From positions 1 to 64,000 of the forward strand of contig CAWUHX010000223.1 of assembly GCA_963922205.1 (NCBI GenBank): a stretch of DNA of 64,000 bases, in the 5' to 3' direction. Below are positions 5,315-62,464 of this stretch, piece by piece. A model generated the notes under the pieces. It did no database searches and was not told the origin of the DNA. It worked only from the letters and a program-made list of their open reading frames with translations. How positions within the stretch are numbered: the stretch's first letter is position 1; every line of letters starts with the position of its first letter. Made by a program: the position numbers and the translations under genes. Origin of the DNA: Romanomermis culicivorax (Eukaryota; Nematoda; Enoplea; Mermithida; Mermithidae).

Positions 5315-8300
5315 TCATTCTTCAGCTGGCATAAGACCGAACAAATTGTTGCCCAAAGCTTGCTTGTCGGTCGAATAGAAAAATTCGTCCCATAATTTAC
5401 GGAAATGAGCGTAATCGAAAACTTTCATCGATTGACCTTGAGAATCCTGAGGTGAAAAAAATTCGAGAGATAAAATTATTTGACACTATTCGATTGGTCT
5501 CGTTGAGATCTATTCAATGATATAAAAAATATACCTGTTAGTTCAATATTGTTCGAGAAATTATCCATTGAAGTTTTCGGATTTTTGTCAACACCCTATT
5601 GTCATCAGAATGATTTAACTTCAGTAAAAGGCTTTCTATCGTATCAAAACGAAACAAACATGATATAAATCGATAGATCTTGTCAAGATCTATCTAATCA
5701 TACTAAAATCATATCTCCACCATCAGTTTTGATGGAAAAATCTCGGATCGAAATTTTCGGATTTTTATCAAAACACCCTGTTGACATGACATAAATTTAC
5801 TTGGAAAAAAATATTTTCTGTCATATCAAAACCCGACATACATGGTATAAATCGATAGATCTCGTCAAGAGCTATCTAATAATACAAGAATCACAGTTCT
5901 ATAACAAGTTTTGAGCGAGGAATCATCGATTGAAGTTTTTGACTTTTGGTCGAAACACCCTGTTTTTATAAATATTACTAAACTGTGCAAAATGTTTCCT
6001 GATGTATTAAATTTCAACATTTAAGGTACAAATCGATAGATCTCGTCGAGATCTATCTAATTATACTAGATTCATATCTCTATCATTAATTTTAATCGAA
6101 AAATCGTGGATCGAAGTTTTTGGATTTTTGTCGAAACACCCTGTTGACATAACGTTTATTAACTTTGAAGAACATATTTTCTATCTAATCAAAATCCAAC
6201 ATACATGGTATAAATCGATAGATCTCGTCGAGATCTATCTAATCATACTAGAATCATATCTTTATCATCAATTTTGATCGAAAAATCCCCGATAAAAATT
6301 TTTCAAATTTTTGTCGAAACACCCTGTTGTCATAACGTGAATTAATTAGGAAAAACTTATCTTGTACGGTACAAAAACTCAACATACATGGTACAAATCG
6401 ATAGATCTCGTCAAGAGCTATCTAATTATACAAGAATTACAGCTCTATCGTAAATTTTGATTGAAAAATCATCGATCGAAGTTTTTGACTTTTGATCGAA
6501 ACAACCTGTTTTTATAAATACTACTTAACTCTGCAAAATGTCTTCTGTTGTATTAAAATCAAAATTAATGATATAAATCGATAGATCTCGTCGAGATCTA
6601 TCTAATCATACTTAAATTATATTTCTATCGTTAAGTTTGATCGAAAATTACTCGATCGAAGTTTTTGGATTTTTGTCGAAATACCCTGTTGACATGACGT
6701 GAATTAACTTTGAAAAACATTTTTTCTATCACATCAAAACCTAACATACATGGTATAGATCGATAGATCTCGTTGAGTTCTATTGATCAGTAGTAAGCGC
6801 TTCTTTCTATGTAAACTTTTCATCGAGTTACAAAGATTGTAAGTTTTTGTAGGCTGACAGGGTGTGCCTAAAAAACGATAAAAATGTTGTCGTTCCAAAT
6901 GTAAAAAACTATACATCAATGGAAAGATCTTTTTTAGCTCTATCCAACGGCGATAAGCGTTTTATTATAGATACATTTTTGACCGAGTTATAAGGGTTCA
7001 AAGTTTTTGAGGCTAACAGGGTGTCTCTAAGAAATTAATTTCTTCCCGATTTTTTTAAGGTTTCAGCGTTTTGAATACCAAAAAAATTATATCCAAAGAA
7101 AGGTCTCGTCGCGCTCTATCCAATAGTAGCAAGCGTTTTTTCATCAGTAAATTTTTGATTGAGTTACAAAGATTCGAAGTTTTTGTAAGCAAACTGGGTG
7201 TTTTTGTAAGTTTTTGTAATCGAACCAAAAAAATATTTTTCGGACTAAAAATGTGAAAAATGTACATCAGTAGAAAGATCTTTTTGAGCTCTATCCAACG
7301 GTAGTACGCATTTTAATTTAGGTTGATTTTTCATCGAATTATAAACATTCAAACTTTTTCAGGCTGACAGGGTGTCTCCAACACAAAAAAATAGGTTTTT
7401 CGTATTTATTCCAAAATTTAACATTTATATACCAAAAGTTTATATACCAAATGAAAGATCTCGTCGAGATCTATTCAAATATGGCATTTTTAATACTGTA
7501 TCTACTTTTTTGACGGAGTTACAGCTTTTCCAAATTTTCCTCAGCTGACAGGGTTTCTAGATCAAAATTTCTCACCACAGCAATTTTCTTGAACGCTTCA
7601 GTCGCTTCTCGGGTACTAAGGCCGTAGGCGTTCATACCGTCCACATATTCCGAAATGTCCAAAACGTTATCAGCTGGAAATGGAAAAAATGGAATAAAAA
7701 TGGAAAAAATGGAATAAAAATGGCATAAAAATAGAAAAAAATTGAAAAAATTAGCCATTTGGGGAAGAAAATCACCGGAAACGTCGAATAATTTGAACAT
7801 ATATTCGCCGTATTTTTCGAACCAACCAGAGGGCGATTGTCTCATTTCCAAGGTTCTACGCATCAAAGTCAACCATTCTTGTAATTCTATACGTTGGTCG
7901 TTGTCTTTGTCCGCAATTTCCAATAATCCGAGCCACAAAGCTTTCAAACTTTCTTTGGCGTAGCCCATTTGTTCCGAATCGTTGCCGTAAATGTTTCTAA
8001 CTTGCTAGGGTAGAGCATAATTTTTGCAGATTAATTTGATCAACTGGTTATTTTTACCTTGATCACCAAATAAAAATCGTTATGTTCGACCGAGCGACTA
8101 TCATTTTGATCTGAAAAAAATAAGCCTAAGCCTAAGCCTAAGCCTAAGCCTAAGCCTAAGCCTAAGCCTAAGCCTAAGCCTAAGCCTAAGCCTAAGCCTA
8201 AGCCTAAGCCTAAGCCTAAGCCTAAGCCTAAGCCTAAGCCTAAGCCTAAGCCTAAGCCTAAGCCTAAGCCTAAGCCTAAGCCTAAGCCTAAGCCTAAGCC

Positions 8301-8877
8301 TAAGCCTAAGCCTAAGCCTAAGCCTAAGCCTAAGCCTAAGCCTAAGCCTAAGCCTAAGCTCAAGCCCAAGCCTAAGCCTTGTCACATGCCCCACGGCCGT
8401 ACATCACCCCTTCGTAGCAATCGCAACATTGGCTCGGTAGTTCAATCGGAAGAACACTGCACTATAGTCACAGAGACCCTGGTTCGAATCCCGGTCGAGC
8501 ATTATTTTTCGAACAGTGTTTGGCAATGGTTACGATGGCAACGCGTTTACCCATTATGTGTCAGCCTAAGCCTAAGCCTAAGCCTAAGCCTAAGCCTAAG
8601 CCTAAGTCCAAGGCTAAGCCTAAGCCTAAGCCTAAGCCTAAGCCTAAGCCTAAGCCTAAGCCTAAGCCTAAGCCTAAGCCTAAGCCTAAGCCTAAGCCTA
8701 AGCCTAAGCCTAAGCCTAAGCCTAAGCCTAAGCCTAAGCCTAAGCCTAAGCCTAAGCCTAAGCCTAAACCCAACCAGCGCACTTACCGAAGAATGTATCA
8801 AAAATTTTAATCCATTTTTGTACTAAAAATGGATGAACTTCCTCATCATCGGTAACTTTATTTTCTACAGTAGCCAT
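5315..8877 (-). CDS. calexcitin-like EF-hand calcium-binding protein, 5 exons
   Basis: Exons, minus strand: 8877-8787, 8110-8058, 8004-7776, 7673-7576 and 5446-5315. All junctions have GT/AG ends, phases 1-0-1-0 agree, and the product is 200 residues. Three EF-hand loops are visible: residues 31-42 ([12 protein letters not shown], with Asp instead of Glu at position 12), 80-91 ([12 protein letters not shown], canonical) and 122-133 (split by an intron, [12 protein letters not shown]). The C-terminus has the pattern [11 protein letters not shown]...GNNLFG, typical of invertebrate calexcitins and sarcoplasmic calcium-binding proteins. Such proteins are cytosolic calcium buffers or sensors, best known from neurons; that role is family knowledge. 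The last junction (AV|DS) is the least certain. Introns 1 and 4 are filled with telomeric and satellite repeats. Confidence 0.88.
5480..7545 (-). repeat. ~181-bp satellite inside calexcitin intron 4, inverted relative to 2.0-4.8 kb
   Basis: The core ATCGATAGATCTCGTCGAG and variants recur at about 5683, 5864, 6045, 6222, 6408, 6590 and 6770, then more diverged near 6925, 7111, 7275 and 7458. The reverse complement gives CGAGATCTATCGATT followed by a GTACC-like tail, the same core as the 184-bp array to the left. The core is an inverted repeat (GATAGATCTCG / CGAGATCTATC). Many units also carry ACACCCTGTT or its complement, AACAGGGTGT. The intron (5447-7575) is almost entirely this array. Confidence 0.88.
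8121..8379 (-). repeat. interstitial telomeric repeat (TTAGGC)n, array 1
   Basis: About 43 tandem GCCTAA units on the + strand, equal to TTAGGC on the minus strand, which is the nematode telomere hexamer. Units are nearly perfect to about 8355 and degenerate (CTCAAGCCCAAG) just before the LTR insertion. The array lies within intron 1 (8111-8786) of the calexcitin-like gene, so the pre-mRNA carries UUAGGC repeats. It was continuous with array 2 before the insertion. Confidence 0.97.
8380..8563 (+). mobile_element. solo LTR of the tRNA-bearing miniature LTR element, inside telomere repeats
   Basis: A 184-bp unit starts TGTCACATG and ends TATGTGTCA, so it has TG...CA termini. It has the same length as both LTRs of the complete element at 50702-51156 and is clearly similar throughout. 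It is flanked by GCCT on both sides (8376-8379 and 8564-8567). Removing the unit and one GCCT restores a telomeric register. The interior carries the tRNA-like segment at 8431-8501. No internal region or second LTR is present, as expected after LTR-LTR recombination. Confidence 0.87.
8431..8501 (+). pseudogene. tRNA-like sequence within the LTR
   Basis: This copy has an A box (TAGTTCAATCGG), a B box (GGTTCGAATCC), a four-pair D stem, a T arm with one mismatch and an acceptor stem with six good pairs. The anticodon stem pairs only in its outer three positions (CTG/CAG), followed by two C-A/A-C mismatches. The nominal anticodon in the loop CTATAGT would be AUA. It is therefore a tRNA-derived sequence, not a dependable tRNA gene, although Pol III promoter boxes are intact. 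Confidence 0.75.
8564..8774 (-). repeat. interstitial telomeric repeat (TTAGGC)n, array 2
   Basis: About 35 GCCTAA units continue the telomeric array on the far side of the solo LTR. A small imperfection lies near 8587-8597 (AAGTCCAAGGC), and the array ends as CCTAAACCCAACC at the exon 1 donor side. Together with array 1 it makes up nearly all of calexcitin intron 1. Confidence 0.96.
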
Positions 8878-9199: not shown

Positions 9200-10135
9200 A
9201 AATTTTTCCTCACTAATGAACTTTAGTTTACAGCGGCTTACTGACTGTAATTATGCGTCTAATGGAATTGAATCAAATTTTATTTTTTGTCCGATTTTTT
9301 AGTTTAATTACTTTATTTTACTTTTTTGCTTTTTTTTTTGCTTTTTTGCTTCATTTTTTTTATTTTTAGGGTTTTCCCCCTTTTTCTAAGTTTTGATTTG
9401 TCATATTTTTTTTTGCTTTATTTTTTATTTTTCGAGTTTTTTTCCCTTTTTCTATGTTTTATTTTTTATTTTGTTTTTTCTTTATTTTTTAGGTTTTATT
9501 TTTGATCTTTTTATTAAATTTTTTGTTTTGGTATTTTGATTTTGTGATTTTTTAATTAATAATTTTTGCGTTTTTTGCTCTATTTTTTTATTTTTCAAGT
9601 TTTAACTTGTTATTTTTTTTCTAATTTTAGGTTGTATTTTTGATTTTTTGATTTAAATTTTGGTTTTGGCCTTACAATTTTTAATTTTTTGATTAGGTTT
9701 TGTTTTTTTGCTTTATTTTTATTTTTTTATTTATTAAATCTTTTTTTTTTATTTTTGGTTTTTTTATTCAATTTCTTAATTTGGTTTGATATTTTGACTA
9801 ATTTTTGTTTTTTGATTTATTTTTGTTTTTTTTTATTTTTTCAAGTTTTCTACTTATTATTTTCTTTTTTTTGACATTTTAGGTTTTATTTTTTATTATG
9901 AATGTTGATTTTTTGTTACAAATAGAGTTTATTTTTCTTATTTTTGATTTTTTTATCTTTTTAGATGTTTGTTTCTGTTCATTTTGAATAATTTTTCTAG
10001 TTTTGTTTCTTAAATTTTTTTTTGTTTTTAAATTTTTTTGTTCAATTTTATAAATTTTTTTGTTTAATTTTATAAATTTTATTTTTTTTGTTCCACTTTT
10101 AGTTTTGCTATTTCGATATTTGGTTTTTTGATATT
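9200..10135. repeat. T-rich low-complexity tract
   Basis: Long T runs broken by G, A and C, with short recurrent words such as TTTTGATTTTTTG and TTATTTTTT. It changes abruptly into A-rich DNA at about 10140. The frames here encode only Phe/Leu/Ile strings. No gene is seen. Confidence 0.8.
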
Positions 10136-13100
10136 TTTACATTAAAAAAAGGAAAAAAGACAAAAAAAACAGAAAAATAGAAAACAAAAAATCACAAAAG
10201 ATGCAAATAATAAGCATAAAAAAACAAGGAAAGAAAACAAAAAACTGTAAAATGAACAAAAACTATAAAAAATGTAAAAATAGCAAATTAAACTAAAATA
10301 ATAATCATGAAAATAAAAAATTGATAGGAAAGTAGAAACAAAAAACCAAAAAAAAAACAAAAAAAAAGAAATTGAAGAAAAATTCACAAAAAATCCAAAT
10401 AATAAGCATAAAAACAAAAGAAAAAAGACAAAAAAGTAAAATGAACAAATAGAGAGAAAAATGTAAAAATAGCAAATTGAACTAAAACAATAATGATAAA
10501 AAGTAAAAAAAAGAGTTATGAAAAGTAGGAAACAAAAAAATTACAAAAAATGTAAAAAATAAGCATAAAACAAAAGAAAAAAGAGAAAAAACAGTAAAAT
10601 AAACAAACAAACTGTAAAAATAGCAAATAAAACTGAAACAATAATTATAAAAAGTAAAAAGTAATGAAAAAAAGTGCAAAAAGCAAAAAAAATTATGAAA
10701 AAATAAAAAACGCAAAAGTGAAGAAAAAATTAACAAAAAACTGAAAATAGAATTTAAAAAAATGACAAAAAAGTCGAAAAAATAGAAAACAACACAAAAA
10801 AGTTAATAGAACTAAAACAATAATAATAAAAAATAAAGTGATAAAAAATATAAAAAAAAAACAAAAAATATATGAAAAATAGAAAGCATATAAAAAAGAA
10901 AAATTCGAAAAAAGTAAAAATAGAACAAAAACAACAATAATAAAAAATTACTAAAAACGAAAAAAGGCAACAACACAAAAAAGCAAATAGAACTAAAAAA
11001 TGATAAAAAAAGTAATAAAACGTGAAAGAGTAATAAAAACATAAAAAGAGAAAAAAGCTCATAAAAATTAGAAAACAAAAAAAAAATTTTAAAAAAGTCA
11101 CAAAAACACAAAAAAGAACAAAAAAAACAAAAAAATAAAAAATTAAAAACAACACAAAAAGCAAATAGAACTAGAACAATAATGATGAAAAAGTAAAAAA
11201 ACGAAGAATGCTGTAAAAAAACAAAAAATCACAAAAAAACAAATAATAAGCATAAAAACAGTAAAAAAAAGAAAAAAGACATAAAATTACAAAAAAAACA
11301 AAAAGCACAAAAAAGGACAAAAAAATGAAAAATTGAAAACAACACAAAAAAGCAAATTGAACTAAAACAATTAAAAAACAAAACAAGTTGTTTAAAAATA
11401 CAAAACAAAAAAATCACAAAAAAACAAACAATAAGCATAAAAACAGTAGAAAAAAAGAAAAAGACAACAAAAATTACAAAAAAAAACAAAAAACACAAAA
11501 AAGAACAAAAAAGAAAAAATTGAGAAATTGAAAACAACATAAAAAAAGCAAATAGAACTAGAACAATAATGATGAAAAAGTAAAAAAACAAAAAATGTTG
11601 TAAAAAAGAAACAATAAGCATAAAAACAGTAAAAAAAAGAAAAAAGACAATAAAATTACAAAAAACAAAAAGCACAAAAAAGAACAAAAAAACAAAAAAA
11701 TGAAAAATTGAAAATAACACAAAAAAGCAAATAGAACTAAAACAATTAAAAAACAAAACAAGTTGTTTAAAAATACAAAACAAAAAAATCACAAAAAAAA
11801 CAAACAATGCGCATAAAAACAGTAGAAAAAAAGACAAAAAAAATTACAAAAAAAAACAAAAAACACAAAAAAGAACAAAAAAGAAAAAATTGAGAAATTG
11901 AAAACAACACAAAAAAGCAAATAGAAATAGAACAATAATGATGAAAAAGTAAAAAAACAAAAAATGTTGTAAAAAAAGAAACAAAAAAATCACAAAAAAG
12001 AAATAAGTATAAAAACAGTAAAAAAAAGAAAAAAGACAAAAAATTACAAAAAAACAAAAAGCACAAAAAAGAACAAAAAAACAAAAAAAAATGAAAAATT
12101 GAAAACAACACAAAAAAGCAAATAGAACTAAAACAATTAAAAAACAAAACAAGTTGTTTAAAAATACAAAACAAAAAAATCACAAAAAAACAAACAATGC
12201 GCATAAAAACAGTAGAAAAAAAGACAAAAAAAATTACAAAAAAAAACAAAAAACACAAAAAAGAACAAAAAAACAAAAAATTGAGAAATTGAAAACAACG
12301 CAAAAAAGCAAATAGAACTAGAACAATAATGATGAAAAAGTAATAAAAAAGTAATAGAAAAGTAACAAAAATTATGAAAAATAGAAAAAGTGTAAATAAA
12401 ATAAAATAATAGTGATAAGAAATAAAAATTGATAGAAAATTATAAAAACAAAAACAAAAAACTTACAAAAAAAACGAAAAAGTACAAAAGAATAAAAAAC
12501 AAAAAGTACAAAAAAATGAAACATTGAAAACAATATAAAAAAGCAAATAGAGCTAAAACAGTAATGATAAAAAAGAATTAAAAAAGTAAAAAAACAAAAA
12601 AAAATATGAAAAATAGAAAACAAAAAAAACACAAATATAAATAAGCATTAAAACAAAACAAAAAAAAAACAGATCAAAAAAGTAGAAAAAATGTAAAAAT
12701 TATAAAAAGTATTACTGTAGCTCGATTTTACAAAAAAAAATTTTTTTTACTTGAGCATCAACAATAAAAAAATATTACTGAAATTATGCAGTTTATAAAA
12801 AAGTACAAAATGATAAAAAAGTACATGAAGCAAAAAAATAGAAAACAACACAAAAAGTGTAAATAGAAATGAAATAATCATGATGTAAAGGCACAAAGTA
12901 TAAAAAATTGTGAAAAAAATCAAAATGAAAAATAGAAAAAAAACTTGAGAAAAATTCTCAAAAAGTAAAAATACAACTAAAAAAATTATAAAAAAAATGG
13001 AAAAAAACAAAAATATTACGAAAAAACAAAAAAAAAACAATGAAAATTGAAAACAACGCAAAAAAGCAAATAGTACTAAAAGAACAATGATAAAAAAGTA

Positions 13101-14205
13101 ATAAAGAAGTAGGAAAACAGAAAAAAAATTTGTCAAAAATCAAAAACAAAAAAAAATCCCAAAAAATAAAAAATATAAGCATGAAAACAAAAGAAATACG
13201 ACAAAAAAGTGCAGAAAACAGAAAAAATTATGAAAAATTGAAAACACAAAAAAGCAAATAGAACTAAAACAGATAGACAGTAACAAAAAAAAATAAAAGA
13301 ACCAACGAAAGTTATGAAAAATGGAAAGCGAAAAAAGCTCAAGAAATACAAATAATAAGCGTAAAAACAAAAGAAAAAAGACAAAAATAAAAAAAGTTCA
13401 AAAAACAATATAAAATTGAAAATAAAGCAAAAAAGCAAATAGAACTAAAACGATAATGATAAGATAAGTAAAAAACAAAAAAGATTTATGAAAAAAAGGA
13501 AACAAAAAATTCACATAAATGCAAATAATAGGCATAAAAACAAAAAAAGGGGAAAACAATAAAATTTACAAAAAAAGAAAAAAATGTAAAAATAGTAAAT
13601 AGAACTAAAACAATAATAATAAAAAAGTAATGAAAAAGTTTAAAAAACTAAAAAAGTTGTGAAAAATACAAAACAAAAAAAATGACAAAAAATACAAATA
13701 AGCATAAAAACGAAAGAAAATAGACAAAAAACCAAAAAGTACAAAAAACAAAAAGTACAAAAAAACTTTGAAAAATTGAAAACAACGCGAAAAAGCAAAT
13801 AGAACTAAAACAATACTGATAAAAAAGTAAACAAAAAACAAAAAAAATTATGAAAAATAGAATTAATCACAAAAAATACAAACAATAAGCATAAAAACAA
13901 AAAAAGTCAGAAAAACAAAAAATTGTGAAAAATTAAAAACAACACAAAAAGCAAATAGAGCAAAAACAATAATGATAAAAAAGTTAAAAAAACGAGAAAA
14001 GTTATGAAAAAAAGAAAACAAAAAAAAATCACAAAAAATACAAACAAGAACAAAAATGCAAGAAAAAGACAGAAAAATGATCAAAAAAGTAGAAAAAATG
14101 TAAAAATTATAAAAAGTATTACTGTGGCTTGATTTTACAAAAAAAATTTTTTTTTACTTGAGCATCAACAATTAGACAATATTACTGTAATTATGCAGTT
14201 TACAC
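10136..14205 (+). repeat. A-rich satellite, average unit ~185 bp, with a local dimer
   Basis: The anchor GCAAATAGAACTAAAACAAT recurs about every 150-235 bp (for example at 10471, 10622, 10982, 11160, 11351, 11547, 11716, 11916, 12117, 12307, 12541, 13063, 13252, 13432 and 13794). Between 11.38 and 12.3 kb a larger unit of about 375-390 bp repeats, marked by ACAAGTTGTTTAAAAATAC at about 11380, 11755 and 12147. A ~115-bp block ending near ATTATGCAGTTTA occurs at 12680-12800 and again at 14088-14205, closing two sub-arrays. The poly-Phe frames on the minus strand are low-complexity artefacts. Confidence 0.85.
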
Positions 14206-14224
14206 AAAAAATGTAAAGCTTCGA

Positions 14225-17200
14225 TTAAATTTCGCGTTCTTGCAATTCGGGTAACGATTCTAAACTTGGTGTAAACTTCCTACAATTGCTAAATTTTCGC
14301 CTTTTATCCAAAACCGACGAATTGATGTTTAAATTTTGATTTAAAATATAGCCGAAAACTTGTTGCTTTTTGGACAATTCTTTAAACTTTACATCGCTCC
14401 GATTATCGATCATTTTTTGTTTACACTTTTCCGAAAATTGTAAAGAATATTTCCGGCTATTTACATCTATGTCGTTGTTTTCTTTTTTTTCGTTGTTTTC
14501 TTTTTTTTCTAAAATTTTTCGACGATGGAAAGCTTGTAATTCGGATTTTCGATTTTTGTCCACAATTTGATTGAAATCTAAATCGCAAGATCGACGCATT
14601 TCGTCCATATAAACGTCGGGTATGAGCATGGCCGGGCCATTTTCGTCTTCGGAAAGTTCGACGATTTTGACCTGGAAAAGAAAAAAAATGAAAAAATAAA
14701 AAAAAAAAATAAAAAAAATACAAAAAACAAAAAAAACAAAAAAAACAAAAAAAACATAAAAAATAGAAACAAAAACAAAAACAAAGAATAGAAACAGAAC
14801 AAAAATAAAAACAAAACAAAAAAAAACAAAACAAAAATAAAAACAAAACAAAAAATAAATTTTAAAATTAAAAAAAAGAAAAGGGAAAAAATTGTGAAAA
14901 ACAAAAAATAGAGAAAACTTTGGAGGAGAAATGGGAAAAATTGAAAAATTCGAAAAAACAAAAAATTGAAAACTTGTAAAAAATAAAACAGCAAAAAAGA
15001 ATTGAAAAAAAGAAAAGCGAAAAATGTAAAAAATAAAAAACATAAAAAAACATAAAAAATAGAAACAAAAACAAAAACAAAAAAAAGAAACAGAACAAAA
15101 ATAAAAACAAAACAAAAAATAAATTTTAAAATTAAAAAAAAAGAAAAGGGGAAAATTGTGAAAAACAAAAAATAGAGAAAACTTTGGAGGAGAAATGGAA
15201 AAAATTGAAAAATTCGAAAAAAAATTGAAAACTTGTAAAAAATAAAACGAAAAATAAGCGGAAAAAGCGAAAAAATGTGAAAAATGAAGAAATAAAATTA
15301 AAAACTAAAAACACAGACGGGGAAAATGTAAAAAATTTGGAAAAATATTAAAATAAAGAATTAAAAAAAAAGAAAAGGGGAAAATTCTAAGAAATAACAG
15401 AACCAAAAAAAAATTTTTGAAAAGACAAAAAAAAAATAAAGAAAAATTAAACAAAGAAAAGAAAAACTGTAAAAAATGATGAAGAATTAAAAAAATAAAA
15501 CGTAAAAAGTTCTAAAGAAAAAAATTGAGAAAAGTAAAAGAAACGGAAAAAAAGTACAAGAAATAAAAAAACGGAGAAAATTAAAATAGGAAAAAATTGT
15601 AAAAATTTAAGAAAAAACTAAAAAACCAATAAAAAAGGAAAAAATTGTAAAAAATAGAAAAAAGCGAAAGATTTGAAAAAAGCTAAAAAAAATAAAAAGG
15701 GAAATTTGTAAATGAAAAATAGATCAACATTTGAAAAGAAAAAAAAGAAGGAAAAAATCGTGCGAAAAATTGAGAAAAAGTGAAAAAAAACAAAAAAAGT
15801 GAAGAAAGTAAAAAATTGTAAAAATAAAAAAATTAAGAAAAATTAAAAAAAAAATGAAAAAAAACAAAAAATAGAAACAAAAGCAAAGAGAAACAAAAAC
15901 AAAAAAAAAAACAAAATTTAAAAATTAAAAAAAAGAAAAGAGGAAAATTGTGAAAAACAAAAAATAGAGAAAACTTTAGAGGAGAAATGGAAAAAAGTAA
16001 AAAGATTGAAAAAATAGAAAAATTGATAAAAATTCCTAAAAAATTGGAAACGTAAAAAATAAAACAGTAAAAAACAATTGAATAAAAGAAAGTGAAAAAT
16101 TGTAAAAAATGAAAAAAAAAATTAAAAACTAAATACACAAACGGGAAAAATATAAAAAAACCAGAAAAATTTGAAAAAACGTGGAAAAATATTAAAATAA
16201 AGAATTAAAAAAGGAAAAAGGGAAAATTGTAAGAAATAAAAAAACCAAAAAAAATTTGAAAAGCCAAAAAAAGTGAAAAATTGTAAAAAAATAAAAAAAT
16301 TAAGAAGAATTAAACAAAGGGAAAAAGTGAATAAAATAGAATTTAAAAAAAGTAAAATTTATAAAAAAAACAAAGTTGAAAAAAAGTAAAAATTGTAAAA
16401 AATAAAAAATTGAGGAAAATTTGGAAAAAAAAACAAAAAAAGAAGAAAAATTGTAAAAAGATTAAAAAAAAGGTAATAATTACCAAAAATAAAAAAGTTA
16501 GAAGAATTGAAACGAAAAAAAGAAAAAGTTGTAAAGTAGAAAATTGAGAAAAGTTAAAAAAAACGGAACAAAGTATAAAAAATAAAAAAACGGAGAAAAT
16601 TGTAAAAATAGAAAAAAAGAAGAAAAATTACCGAAAAATTATAAAAAAAAATTGTAAAAAATAGAAAAATTTAGTAAGAAAAGGAACAAATTATAAAAAA
16701 AAATTGAGAAAATAAGAAAAAGGGAAAATAGTAAAAATTCGAGAAAAAACTAAGAAAAACAATAAAAAAGGAAAAAATTGTAAAACTTAGAAAAAAACGA
16801 AAGATTTGAAAAAACTGAAAAATTAAAAAAAAAACAAGAAATGGAAAAATTGTGAATAAAAACAAGAAAAAAATTTGAAAAAAGAAGAAAAAAGCGTGAA
16901 AAAATTGTAAAAATAAAAAAATAAGAAAGAACAAAAAATAAGACAACAAAAAATAAAAAGAATTGTGAAAAATAAAAAAAAATGAAAAAATTAAAAAAAC
17001 AGAAGAATGAAAAATGGTAAAAAATAAAATTTGTAAATTGTAAAAATTGTAAAAAAAACAAAATAAAAAATAACAAAATAAACGGAAAACTTGTATAAAA
17101 ATACCAAAAAAATAAAAGGGAAAAACTGAAATAAAGAAAAATTTGAGAAAAAACGGAAAAAGTGAAAAATTGGAGAAAAAATTAAAAAAAAAACAAACAA

Positions 17201-20200
17201 AAATTAAAGAACAAAAAAAAGAAAATTTAAACAAAAGAAGAAAGGAACAAACTGTAAAAGATAGAAAAAAATTGAGAAAATTAGAAAAGGAAGAAATGGT
17301 AAAAATAAAAAATATAAAAAAATTAGCAAAAAATAATAAAAAAGAAGCATTGTAAAAAAAGAGAAAATTTGAAAAAAGAAAATCAATGAAAAAAATTAAG
17401 AAAAACAAAAGGAAAAAGTTATGAAAAATCAAAAAATAGAGAAAAATTTGAAAAAAGGCAAAAAGTGTTGAAAAATTGAGGAAAAAGTGAAGAAAAACAA
17501 AAAAATGTGAAAAAATGTAAAAATAAAAAATTAAGAAAAATTAAAAAAGGACAAATTAGAAAAAATTAAAAAAAAGAAAGTAAAAGTTGTAAAAAAGAAA
17601 AATAATAAAAAAATGAAAAAACAAAAGGAAAAAGTTATGGAAAATCAAAAAAGAGAGAAAAATTTGAAAAGAGGCAAAAAGTGTTGAAAAATTGAGGGAA
17701 AAGTGAAAAAAAAACAAAAAAATGGGAAAAAATGTAAAAATAACAAATTAAGAAAAATTAAAAAAGGACAAATTGGAGAAAATTGAAAAAAAGAAAGTAA
17801 AAAGATGTTAAAAAAATAAAAAAAAAAGAAAAAACTTTAGAAAAATCAAAAAATAGAGAAAAATTTGAAAAAAGGCAAAAAGTGTTGAAAAATTGAGGAA
17901 AAAAATGAAAAAAACGAAAAAATAAAATAATGTAAAAATAAAAAACAAAGAAAAATTAAGAAAAAATTGAAAACTGAAAAGTTGTAAAAAAATGAGAAAA
18001 TGAAAAATTGGGAAAAAAAGTAAAAATAAAAAAATAAGGAAAAATAATTAAAAAAAATAATTAATTTACCGTCGAAGTTTTCCTAATTAATTTTTCGTAT
18101 TCGATCAATTGACGCCAGAATCCCAAATTGGGACGCACCAAAGGCCGCTTCAAGGCCAAATGGGCGTAGGCCCGCCTCAACGACAAACGTTCATATTTGA
18201 CCAAATAGGCCAAGGCTAAAGAACAAGAACGGCTAACGCCGGCCAAACAATGGAGTAAAGTTTTGCCGCCGCCGCCGCCGTCGCCGCCGCTCCCATTTTC
18301 CCAAATTTTGTCGGCGATTTCGTCGAAATATTGAGCAATATTTTCCGTTTCCGTATCGTCCAACCACAATTTCAAACGTTCGAAATCCAAATTATTACCC
18401 GGTAAATTTGGAACTTCGTTGGTACAATTGATAACGCAAGTTATACCTGTAAAATTTTGAAACATAAAGTTTACGGGAGAGAATAGAAAAAAATGAAACA
18501 TAAAGTTTACGGGAGAGAAAAAATTGAAACATAAAGTATACGGGAGAAAAAAATTGAAATATCAAGTGTACGGGTTAAAAAATTGAAACATAAAGTTTAC
18601 GGGAGAAAAAAAATGAAATATCAAGTGTACGGGTTAAAAAATTGAAACATAAAGTTTACAGGAGAAAAAATTTGAAACATCAACTGTAGGGGTTGAAAAA
18701 CTGAAACATAAAGTTTACAAGAGAAAAAATCATAAAGTTTACGGGAGAGAAAATTTGAAATATCAAGTGTATGGGTTAAAAAATTGAAACATAAAGTTTA
18801 CAGGAGAAAAAATTTGAAACATCAACTGTACGGGTTGAAAAACTGAAACATAAAGTTTACAAGAGAAAAAATTTGAAACATAAAGTTTACGGGAGAAAAA
18901 ATTTGAAATATCAAGTGTACGGGTTAAAAAATTGAAACATAAAGTTTACGGGAGGGGAAAAAATAAAGCATAATGTTTACGAGAGAAAAAACAATTGAAA
19001 CATAAAGTTTATGGGAGGGAAAAATTGAAACATAAAGTTTACGGCAGATGAAAAATTGAAACATGAAGTTTACAGGAGGAAAAATTTGAAACATCAACTG
19101 TACGGGTTGAAAAACTGAAACATAAAGTTTACAAGAGAAAAAATTTGAAACATAAAGTTTACGGGAGAAAAAATTTGAAATATCTAGTGTACGGGTTAAA
19201 AAATTGAAACATAAAGTTTACAGGAGAAAAAATTTGAAACATCAACTGTACGGGTTGAAAAACTGAAACATAAAGTTTACAAGAGAAAAAATTTGAAACA
19301 TAAAGTTTACGGGAGAAAAAATTTGAAATATCTAGTGTACGGGTTAAAAAATTGAAACATAAAGTTTACGGGAGGGGAAAAAAATAAAGCATAATGTTTA
19401 CGAGAGAAAAAACAATTGAAACATAAAGTTTACGGGAGGGAAAAATTGAAACATAAAGTTTACGGCAGATGAAAAATTGAAACATAAAGTTTACAGGAGA
19501 AAAAATTTGAAACATCAACTGTACGGGTTGAAAAACTGAAACATAAAGTTTACAAGAGAAAAAATTTGAAACATAAAGTTTACGGGAGAGAAAATTTGAA
19601 ATATCAAGTGTATGGGTTAAAAAATTGAAACATAAAGTTTACGGGAAAGAAAAAATTGAAACATGAGGTTTACGGCAGAGCAAAAATTGAAACATAAAGT
19701 TTACAGGAGAAAAAATTTGAAACATAAAGTTTACGGGAGAAAAAATTTGAAATATCAAGTGTATGGGTTAAAAAATTGAAACATAAAGTTTACGGGAGAG
19801 AAAAAGTTGAAACATCAACTGTACAGTTTAAAAAATCGAAACATAAAGATTACAGGAGGGCGAAAAATGAAGCATAAAGTTTACGGGAGAAAAAATAAAT
19901 GAAACATAAAGTTTACGGGAGGGAAAAAATCGAGCTCTCGAACATCAGATATCCAACTGTAGGACATCAGATATCGAGCTCTCGGACGTCAGATATCGAG
20001 CTGTCGGACATCACATACCGAGCTCTCGGACATCAGGTATCAAGCTCTATGGCATGAGATATCAAGCTCTAGGATATCACATATCGAGCTCTCGGACATT
20101 AGATTTCGAACTTTTGGACAACTAGATATCGAACTCTCTGATGACTGATACCAACCTCTTGGACAGCACATATCGAGCTCTAGGATATCACACACCGAGG

Positions 20201-39338: not shown

Positions 39339-39341
39339 AAA

Positions 39342-42300
39342 ATGAACAGATTTCTACTTATTTTTTACACTTTTCTATTTTTTCTAATCGTTTTATTAAC
39401 TTTTAACAATTTAAAATATTCAAAAATCGAACATATTATTCCGTCGCCCGATCGAGAAAAATGCGAATACGAAAAATTTCGCTACGAAGATTTGTTACGT
39501 TTAAAATCGTCCGTTTTAAACGAATTAGACGATTTAGAAACGAAACGGACGGCTTTAAATTTACAAATCGAAATTTTTAAACGACAATTTAAAGAATTAA
39601 CTCGGCGTTTAAAATCGCAAACGGAAATTTTACGGGAAAAAACCAAAATGATCGAACGGGCGCGGGAAAATTTTCGTCAATTTTCCGAACGCGAAACGCC
39701 GGATATTTTTCTACCATTAAAAAAATCGAAAATTCATTTTCAATCGATCGATAATCAAAAATCGAGGACGGTGATTAGCAATTTTTGTTCGTTAAATCAT
39801 TGTTTCGATCATTCGAAATGTTCGATTTTAGAACCAAAAATGAAAATTAAATTTACTGGTGTAAAGTTCATAAATTATGGTGGTGTAAACTACGACGATT
39901 TTTGTTTACATTTAATCGATTCACGATTCTACGATCAAAAAATACATAATCTCAATCACGTGATTTTACATTTTAATCGATCGATATTCGAAACCCCGCC
40001 CACTTTTGCCATTTTGGCCACGCCTACTTTTAAAATCGATCGATATCGATCGAAATTCGATTTTATAGTCCCGCCTCCGATTATCGATTTTTCCCACGCG
40101 CCGGATATATCGCCCGCTAGGAGAAAATTCCTATTTAGTTTATTGCTAAATCGATCGATAATTGAAACTTTAGAAAAATCGATAATCGATTTTATCCAAA
40201 AACGATTAGCTAAAAAAGTAGGCGGAGCTTTAATAAATACCGATTGCTCATTGGACGATTGTTTTATTTTAAAAACGAAAAAATCGATATTCACGTTTAA
40301 CGTTATAATAATCGGCCAATCAAATTTCGTGAGCGATTTTGATACGTCGATTAAAATTTTGTATAGTTTAAAATTTGGCGCTTTGCCGGTTATTTTGAGC
40401 GCCCAAAATTTTATTTTCCCGTTCGACGACCTCATCGATTGGCGCCGATGCGCACTACATTGGCCGATAGCCAGAATTTTCGAATTGCATTTTAGGTATA
40501 TGGGTTATCGATTTTTTGGGCGAATTTATCGATTTTTCAAAAAATTTATGATTTTTTTCTGAAAATTATATCGCATTTGGAAAATTTTTGAACTTTTCCT
40601 AAAAATTATCGATATTTTTGGGAATTTATCAATTTTTTTTTTCTGGAAATTCCGTCAAATTTCTAAAACTTCTGAACTTTTCCCCAAAAATTAACAATTT
40701 TTTTGGAATTTATCGATTTTTTTCCCGATAAATTATCGATTTTTTTCCTAAAAATTCCGTCAAATTTTTAAAATTTTTGAACCTCTTCCCAAAAACTATC
40801 GCTTTCTTTGGGAATTTGTCGATTTTTTTCTGAAAATTCTGTTTCATTTTCAAAATTTTTTTACTTTCCCACAGAAATTATCGATTTTTTAAAGCATTTA
40901 TTGATATTTTTCCGAAAAATTCATTCATTTTGTGTGGAATCATGTCAGATTATTAGAATTCATAGTGTGTTTTCAAGAAATTATCCATTTTTTTGGAAAT
41001 TTATCGATTTTTTAAAGGAATTGATCAATTTTTTTCGAAAATATTGTCAGATTTGTGAGATTTTTCAATTTTTTCCCCAAAAATTATCGTTTTTTCTGGA
41101 ATTTATTGATTTTTTTTACCAAGAATTATCGACTTTTATTGAGAATTCTGTTGGATTTTTGAAAATTTTAAACTTTTTCCTAGAAATTATCGTTTTTTTT
41201 TTAATTTATTTATTTCTTCCAGAGAAATTATCTGTTTTTTTTCAGAAAATTCTGTCAGATTTTCAAAATTTTTCTACTTTTTCCCAAAAACTTTTTTTTT
41301 GGGAATTTACCGACTTTTTTCCTGATAATTCTATCAGATTTTAAGAAACTGAACTTATTTCCAAAAATTATGAATTTCTATGGAAATTTATCAATTTTTT
41401 CCCGAAAATTCTATCAGATTTTTAGAATTTTTGAACTTTTTCTCAAAAATTATTGATTTTTCTGGAATTTATCGATTTTTAAAAGAAATTATCGATTTCT
41501 CTCTGAAAATTCTGTCTGATGTTTTGGAATTCATGGATTTTTTTCCAAAAATTATTGATATTCTTTGTAATTTATTGATTTATTTTTGTAATTTTCGGAT
41601 TTTTTTTTCCAGAAAATTTATCAATTTTTTCTAAAAATTCTGTCCGATTTTTAAAATTTTTGAAATTATCCCCGAAAATTGTCGATTTCTTTGAGAATTT
41701 ATCGACTTTTTATCTGGAAATTCTTTCAGATTTTTAGAATTTTTGAATTTTTTCTCAAAAAATTATCAATTTTTTTGAGCGTTTCCCAATTTTTTTCAGA
41801 GAAATTATCGAGTTTTGTCGGAAATTCTGTTGGATTTTCGAAAATTTTAAACTTTTTCCAGAAATTATCGATTTTTTTTAGGAATTTATTGATTTCTTCC
41901 AGATAAAGTTATTGATTCTTTCTGTAAATTTTGTCAGATTTTTAAAATTTTTCAACTTTTTCCCAAAAATTATCGATTTCTTTGGCAATTTCCTGATTTT
42001 TTCCTTGAAAATTCTGTCAGATTTTAAGAAACGTTGAATTTATTTTCAAAAATTATCAATTTCTATGGAAATTTATCAATTTTTCCGGAAAATTCTGTCA
42101 GGTTTCTATAATTTTTGAACTTTTTCCCCAAAAATTATCAATTTTTTTGAAAATTTACCGATTTTTATCAGAAATTATCAATCTTTTCTAAAAAATCTGT
42201 CAGATTTTTGGAATTAACGCACTTTTTCCTAGAAATAATCGATTTTTTGGGGGTATTTTTCGATTTTTTTTCAGAAAATTTGCCGATTTTTTTCTCAAAA

Positions 42301-50611: not shown

Positions 50612-50752
50612 AGGCTCCAAAACTTGAAATGAATGAATGTACAAAACAACACACCTTATATAGTATCACAGAATGTTCTAGAACCTTGTAGAATATAAAA
50701 GTGTCACGTGTCGCACGGCTGTACATCACCCCTTCCTAACTATCGCAACACT

Positions 50753-50823
50753 GGCTCGGTAGTTCAATCGGAAGAACGTTGCACTATAGTCACAGAGACC
50801 CGGGTTCGAATCCCGGTCGAGCA
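50753..50823 (+). pseudogene. tRNA-like sequence in the left LTR
   Basis: Same layout as at 8431-8501, with a perfect T arm (CCGGG-TTCGAAT-CCCGG) and A box TAGTTCAATCGG. The anticodon stem has mismatches on its inner side. Confidence 0.75.
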
Positions 50824-51023
50824 TTATTTTTTGAACAGTGTTTGGCGATGGTTACGATGGCAACGCGTTTACCTGTTACGTGTCATGGCGAGGCTTGGAT
50901 TGGTCCCACATTGGTGGGCCGCAGAACCTGCATCTTCAATGGACGAGGTCATCCTTCTTTCAAGGGGGGGAATGTCACGTGTTGCACGGCCATATATCAC
51001 CCCTTCCTAACTATCGCAACACT

Positions 51024-51094
51024 GGCTCGGTAGTTCAATCGGAAGAACGCTGCACTATAGTCACAGAGACCCGGGTTCGAATCCCGGTCGAGCA
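51024..51094 (+). pseudogene. tRNA-like sequence in the right LTR
   Basis: Identical to the left LTR copy except one base in the anticodon stem (CGCTGC against CGTTGC). A and B boxes are intact. Confidence 0.75.
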
Positions 51095-51267
51095 TTATTT
51101 TTCGAACAGTGTTTGGCGATGGTTACGATGGCAACGCGTTTACCCGTTAAGTGTCAAAAGAATATTATAGAATATTGTGGAAGGTTCTAGATCTTTCTGG
51201 TACAATGCAGTACATGAACTGTACTTGCACATCATTCAATGTGATCATACTGTAAGATATGTATCAG

Positions 51268-62160: not shown

Positions 62161-62464
62161 GGGGTGATGATGGCCGTGCGACACGTGACATTCCCCCCCC
62201 CTTGAAAGAAGGACGACCTCATCCGTTGAAGATGCAGGTTCTGGGGCCCACCAAATGTGGGACCAATCCAAGCCTCGCCATGACATGTAATGGGCAAACG
62301 CGTTGCCATTGTAACCATCGCCAAACACTGTTCGAAAAATAATGCTCGACCGGGATTCGAACCCGGGTCTCTGTGACTATAGTGCAGCGTTCTTCCGATT
62401 TAACTACCGAGCCAGTGTTGCGATAGTTACGAAGGGGTGATGTACGGCTGTGCGACACGTGACA
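62161..62464 (-). mobile_element. truncated TRIM-like element with tRNA-like LTR
   Basis: On the minus strand: full LTR 62464-62281 (184 bp), interior 62280-62191 (90 bp; starts TGGCGAGGCTTGG and ends with a longer G run before AA), then the first 30 bp of the second LTR (62190-62161), broken after CACCCC. The tRNA-like part is at 62413-62343 with intact A and B boxes. The intact LTR length confirms the family boundaries. Confidence 0.9.

Follow-up and report, generated by a model that had tools for sequence, protein, structure and literature searches.

Helenus elements (TRIMp3; Kojima 2024) are TRIMs with tRNA-like LTRs, a primer binding site (PBS) and a polypurine tract (PPT), and have been reported from other animals, from fungi and from one plant (PMC10886601). 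The passages of that paper that describe them give lengths of 311-1263 bp, 4-bp duplications in six animal phyla, solo LTRs, and tandem arrays in one zebrafish family. Most families carry a box B GGTTC and a box A TRGCY...YGG, and the PBS pairs with a cellular tRNA, not with the unit inside the LTR itself; the primers in hymenopterans include tRNA-Arg (PMC10886601). For animals, Gypsy is the presumed helper and the tRNA is considered unlikely to be functional, and several origins of the group are argued (PMC10886601). Helenus is also mentioned in a meeting report (PMC12859917, in the part available). The plant TRIM Cassandra carries 5S rRNA sequence in its LTRs, and Pol III transcription of this 5S unit with read-through has been reported, as described in PMC10886601, where the accessible text uses the word 'terminator' once, about Cassandra. 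PbTRIM of ants is an animal TRIM with LTRs of 152-184 bp, 4-bp duplications, solo LTRs and tRNA-Leu as the primer (PMC3532108).

Here we analysed a 64-kb stretch of nematode DNA (the window), in which a small LTR element lies at 50702-51156. We think it probable that this element is a TRIM of the Helenus (TRIMp3) kind in a nematode, Pol III-transcribed, primed by tRNA-Arg and helped by a Ty3/Gypsy-type element. It resembles Helenus, by description and not by family sequences, in its tRNA-derived LTR sequence, PBS, PPT, 4-bp duplications, solo LTRs and tandem forms. GGTTC and CGG are present in its boxes, but the A box begins TAGTT and not TRGCY. An inverted repeat frames the unit in the window element, whereas the words 'inverted' and 'hairpin' have 0 occurrences in the accessible text of the Helenus paper (PMC10886601). 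With Cassandra the element shares a small-RNA gene promoter inside the LTRs and tandem LTR-interior arrays (PMC7215508, as far as its accessible passages go); it differs in having a tRNA-like in place of a 5S sequence and an animal in place of a plant host, and in that Pol III transcription has been reported for Cassandra (PMC10886601) but is inferred from sequence for the window element. LTR length, 4-bp duplications, solo LTRs and an animal host are shared with PbTRIM, which differs in its tRNA-Leu primer and for which the passages of PMC3532108 mention no tRNA-like LTR unit.

The first-pass annotation had proposed an animal counterpart of Cassandra. This stands in so far as the element is an animal TRIM with a Pol III-type unit, but the element is not a newly found counterpart, Helenus having been named in 2024 (PMC10886601). 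No nematode host is given in the Helenus Table 1, and 'Nematode' occurs 0 times in the main text of PMC10886601 as available. Our literature search, with Repbase and Dfam outside its scope and subscription journals mostly so, found no nematode TRIM with a tRNA-like LTR; given that scope, this is likely, but only likely, the first Helenus-type element in nematodes. TRIMs with tRNA promoters are thus probably extended to a further animal phylum, the nematodes.

Structure of the element

The element has the order LTR-interior-LTR, is 455 bp in total length and carries no genes (Table 1). Its two LTRs have TG...CA ends and are identical at 176/184 positions, the interior starts with TGG, and the duplication AAAG stands on both sides. 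When the coordinates and anatomy were re-measured, the 184-bp repeats, their ends, the 87-bp interior with its start and its closing AAGGGGGGGAA, and the AAAG duplication all came out as first annotated. TRIMs are shorter than 1 kb, have two LTRs, lack coding capacity, carry a PBS and a PPT and integrate with a duplication of fixed length, and the element has each of these properties. Together with the solo LTRs described below, this bears out the earlier view of a complete, gene-less LTR-type element in an animal. No retroelement genes were found in the 15 reading frames scanned of the 60 listed for the window, and folding z-scores of 0.30 and 0.82 for two copies gave no support to the interior as a structured RNA.

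Table 1 Coordinates in the window of the element at 50702-51156 and of the further copies
Feature	Position	Strand	Remark
Target site duplication AAAG, left copy	50698..50701	.	compare 4-bp duplications in 48/59 testable family loci
5' LTR, 184 bp	50702..50885	+	
Inverted repeat, left arm, framing the tRNA-like unit, 5' LTR	50737..50753	+	
tRNA-like unit, 5' LTR	50753..50824	+	ARAGORN tRNA-Tyr(ata); Rfam RF00005, 40.2 bits
A box TAGTTCAATCGG	50760..50771	+	
B box GGTTCGAATCC	50803..50813	+	
T6, putative Pol III terminator, 5' LTR	50827..50832	+	T-run of at least 4 here in 120/124 family LTRs
Inverted repeat, right arm, framing, 5' LTR	50836..50854	+	
Interior, 87 bp, no gene	50886..50972	+	
Primer binding site TGGCGAGGCT	50886..50895	+	complementary to genomic tRNA-Arg 3' end plus CCA
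Polypurine tract AAGGGGGGGAA	50962..50972	+	
3' LTR, 184 bp	50973..51156	+	
tRNA-like unit, 3' LTR	51024..51095	+	ARAGORN; Rfam 42.7 bits
T5, putative Pol III terminator, 3' LTR	51098..51102	+	
Target site duplication AAAG, right copy	51157..51160	.	
Solo LTR inside (TAAGCC)n array, GCCT duplication both sides	8380..8563	+	
Second element, 5' LTR	62281..62464	-	
Second element, interior	62195..62280	-	
Second element, truncated 3' LTR, about 31 bp	62161..62190	-	

We then used the LTR and the interior as queries against the genome (359,112,060 bases in 595 contigs). This genome also returned 50 matches to Col_cuticle_N, all over the cut-off; we take this domain and TTAGGC telomeres to be nematode-specific. 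The domain had no match in 14 control genomes, a control of little weight given that the ten named among them are prokaryotes. The LTR search gave 442 first-look candidates, the best 40 of which yielded 74 listed matches, and the interior search gave 300, the best 40 of which yielded 40 matches. These numbers agree with the large family that had been predicted from the window. The set analysed below comprises 74 loci, namely 38 from the LTR search, 33 further ones from the interior search and the three in the window; since only the best candidates were scored, it favours well-preserved copies close to the window element.

The tRNA-like unit of the LTRs

All four complete LTRs in the window matched the Rfam tRNA model at gathering score (34.7-42.7 bits, cut-off 29) and all four have an intact strict A box and B box, confirming the tRNA-like sequence with both boxes that had been noticed in each LTR. 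Scanning the window for the strict A...B pair gave four sites, all of them within these LTRs; a slightly relaxed pattern recovered the same four and had no match in 30 base-shuffled windows. The order of A box, B box and T-run is that of a tRNA gene. ARAGORN called tRNA-Tyr(ata) in 33 of the 38 loci from the LTR search and nothing in the other five, and automatic tRNA counts in this genome will be inflated by LTR copies called in this way. Tyrosine tRNAs do not normally have the anticodon ata, and the acceptor and anticodon stems contain mispairs in all four window LTRs, which makes it unlikely that the unit is a working tRNA.

An ordinary Pol II-transcribed TRIM with an old SINE or tRNA insertion in its LTR, the unit then being a functionless passenger, is an unlikely alternative, though one with evidence on its side. 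Across 68 LTRs, conservation of the A and B boxes does not exceed that of the remainder of the unit (p 0.21), just 44 of the 68 have both strict boxes intact, and the terminator behind the unit would hinder the production of full-length Pol III RNA. Taken singly, the strict A box is present in 53/68 LTRs of the LTR-search set and 48/56 of the interior-search set, and the strict B box in 56/68 and 51/56, respectively; the commonest failure of the A box (10/15) is a single variant, TAGTTCAATCCG, and not CpG decay.

Four observations speak against the passenger account. A T-run of at least four is kept behind the unit in 120 of the 124 complete family LTRs (with another T4 in four). The two boxes persist in the four window LTRs despite the mispairs in the anticodon stem. 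Across the 68 LTRs the unit varies less than the rest of the LTR when CpG columns are left out (p 0.026), though not clearly so over all columns (p 0.098); in the window's four LTRs 4/72 columns are variable within the unit vs 20/112 outside it (Fisher p 0.023). Finally, neither TATA(A/T)A nor A(A/T)TAAA is present in any of the 124 complete LTRs, which is weak evidence because so short a sequence often lacks them by chance; Pol II promoters can also do without TATA.

Architecture and insertion sites of the family

The LTR-interior-LTR order and the 4-bp duplication, on which the first-pass annotation had staked its reading, are both found in most of the loci analysed. The order is seen in 54 of the 74 loci (some with a cut outer LTR), and the remainder comprises ten solo LTRs, six loci with three LTRs, one with four, and three with an interior and an LTR but no 5' LTR. 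An exact 4-bp duplication flanks 48 of the 59 loci with complete outer ends, leaving eleven without, compared with 1.2 of 59 when flanks were randomly re-paired as a control. Among the solo LTRs, 8/10 have the duplication, and a 5-bp duplication was found in 0 of the 59 testable loci. Tandem LTR-interior-LTR-interior-LTR forms with up to four LTRs were observed at L021, L025, L042, L054, L060, L066, L072, L085 and L096; tandem LTR forms are likewise described in Cassandra and in one zebrafish Helenus in the relevant passages of PMC7215508 and PMC10886601.

We also considered that the units might be tRNA pseudogenes repeated in tandem at one locus, or a SINE, and not part of an LTR element. The spacing of the tRNA-like units, about 271 bp, and the forms with three or four LTRs could be so explained, but the loci are dispersed and have solo LTRs, PBS and PPT, and the 4-bp duplications already contradict this explanation. 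A separate SINE source is opposed by the exact 25-base core, which is preceded by a non-T only twice in the genome, both times at these elements (L064, L128). We therefore regard this explanation as highly improbable.

In the window, the four LTR copies first counted are indeed complete, and the count is refined by an additional LTR piece of about 31 bp, the whole lying at three insertion sites. The solo LTR splits an interstitial array of the telomere-type TTAGGC hexamer (8121-8767) and provided an empty-site phase test: upon removal of the LTR plus 4 bases, 114/120 bases fit one TAAGCC phase, whereas any other removal, from 0 to 8, left 79 or fewer of 120 in phase. Restoration of the repeat phase by removing the LTR and exactly 4 bases is independent proof of a 4-bp duplication on insertion.

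Divergence between paired LTRs was 0.022-0.092 (median 0.060, 26 pairs) in the LTR-search set and 0-0.098 (median 0.043, 19 pairs) in the interior-search set; two of these 19 pairs are identical, indicating that some insertions are recent. Much of the variation among 68 LTRs consists of CpG transitions (C to T or G to A), which account for 255 of 2583 cells, vs 68 of 9921 for transitions elsewhere. This excess is suggestive of germ-line cytosine methylation; in contrast, the genome search gave no match to DNA_methylase (PF00145). As expected, exact core patterns of the element had 0 matches in public viral and prokaryote collections.

Primer site and candidate helper

In the window element, 10 nt of the PBS are complementary to the CCA-extended 3' terminus of a tRNA-Arg(tcg) encoded in the genome, and three other family copies match tRNA-Arg over 18 nt (L072, counted by eye), 16 nt (L113) and 14 nt (L096). 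The primer is probably tRNA-Arg, judging from these complementarities. A longer pattern derived from the window-element PBS had 0 tRNA matches in the genome, while a shorter one had 6 matches, four of which share one tRNA-Arg-like end. ARAGORN called tRNA-Arg(tcg) at three of these four ends (L089, L090, L092) and none at L088, which is a retroelement leader at the same place as L095. As the control pattern also had 6 matches, the case for tRNA-Arg depends on the ARAGORN calls together with the longer complementarities of the other copies. Self-priming by the LTR's own tRNA-like unit was considered and rejected, the PBS matching its CCA-extended 3' end at 4/18 positions end-on and at 8/12 in the best 12-base window; as in Helenus, the complement of the PBS lies in a cellular tRNA rather than in the element's own unit.

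A search of the genome with a 14-nt tRNA-Arg site gave 67 matches, vs 0 for the reversed pattern. Thirty of these loci were inspected. Two (L096, L113) have the TRIM inside, and many others resemble LTR-element leaders by eye. The match to tRNA-Arg is at least 14 nt in 30/30, as set by the choice of pattern, and at least 18 nt in 15/30. Ten long reading frames were chosen behind such sites, and nine of them hit a gag, PNMA or zinc-knuckle model with an E value of 0.01 or lower (eight above the curated cut-off), one having no match. Further downstream, one of three pieces carries RNase H followed by integrase domains, the domain order of Gypsy elements, and the other two have no Pfam family. 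The gag, RNase H and integrase matches behind tRNA-Arg sites indicate that this genome harbours Ty3/Gypsy-type elements with tRNA-Arg as primer, which agrees with the Gypsy helper presumed for animal Helenus (PMC10886601), and we infer that an element of this type with the same primer is a candidate helper.

As to the autonomous partner that the first-pass annotation had asked for, Ty3/Gypsy-type elements with a tRNA-Arg site are present, but no autonomous element sharing the LTR or interior sequence was found in the genome. Searching for a helper with the element's own 14-16 nt PBS gave two matches for TGGCGAGGCTTGGATTH and one for TGGCGAGGCTTGGAV, all of them further TRIM copies.

Two of these loci have unusual features. 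In L095 (about 1501-1540, from the PBS) a retroelement leader is complementary to tRNA-Arg over 39 nt without a break, reaching into the anticodon arm; the unbroken match in the other 29 loci is 14-19 nt, with weaker traces (30-32 of 42) in L111, L114 and L121. L113 (about 990-1700) contains one TRIM LTR and the tRNA-Arg primer site, then sequence resembling an inverted Gypsy LTR. It is possibly a mixed reverse transcript, and no matching duplication was seen there.

The inverted repeat framing the unit

The inverted repeats that had been described around the unit are present, with 17/17 pairs in three window LTRs and 15/17 in the solo LTR, but they have no compensatory support in the 68 LTRs. 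Folding z-scores for the four window LTRs were -4.15, -2.92, -5.10 and 0.03, i.e. three fold well and the fourth does not. All 17 arm pairs are kept in 30/68 LTRs, and the variation is one-sided or pair-breaking. With no pair-keeping double change among the 68 LTRs, the framing stem is unproven as an RNA structure.

A retrozyme-like element, with a self-cleaving ribozyme in its LTRs and circulating as RNA, can be dismissed almost entirely: retrozymes are small LTR elements of similar size that also have a PBS and a PPT, but no Rfam ribozyme family reached gathering score in the window, and a search of 50650-51210 up to E 5 gave only tRNA and sub-threshold mascRNA-menRNA matches.

Proposed transcription and transposition cycle

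For the Helenus-type TRIM that we favour, the promoter boxes and the T-run point to transcription by Pol III. Initiation would lie a few bases upstream of the tRNA-like unit in the 5' LTR. A run of T5-T6 is a strong Pol III terminator, and since one stands directly behind the unit, most transcripts should end inside the 5' LTR, about 80 nt on. Some would run past this signal and end at the T-run in the 3' LTR, giving an RNA of roughly 350 nt with the tRNA-like unit at both ends, where it would serve as the R region. Cellular tRNA-Arg would then prime reverse transcription at the PBS with enzymes lent by a Ty3/Gypsy-type element using the same primer, and the helper integrase would insert the copy, producing the 4-bp duplication.

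A more specific proposal is put forward tentatively, at somewhat less than even chances. It holds that a nematode Helenus lineage has LTRs without evident Pol II signals and makes its genomic RNA with Pol III by read-through of the first terminator, the unit acting as the R region and the terminated product being an abundant tRNA-like by-product. The two T-runs, one to be ignored and one to be used, give a clear prediction on Pol III read-through, and the copy number is sufficient for testing how tRNA-promoter TRIMs are transcribed.

Other features of the window

Long low-complexity arrays, rich in A or in T, and a tandem array of a 30-bp repeat occupy 9300-18000 and 18457-19930. Exons with EF-hand and dual-specificity phosphatase domains, together with a weak exostosin match below the cut-off, were observed at 7519-8004 (-), 18061-18561 (-) and 39339-40562 (+).
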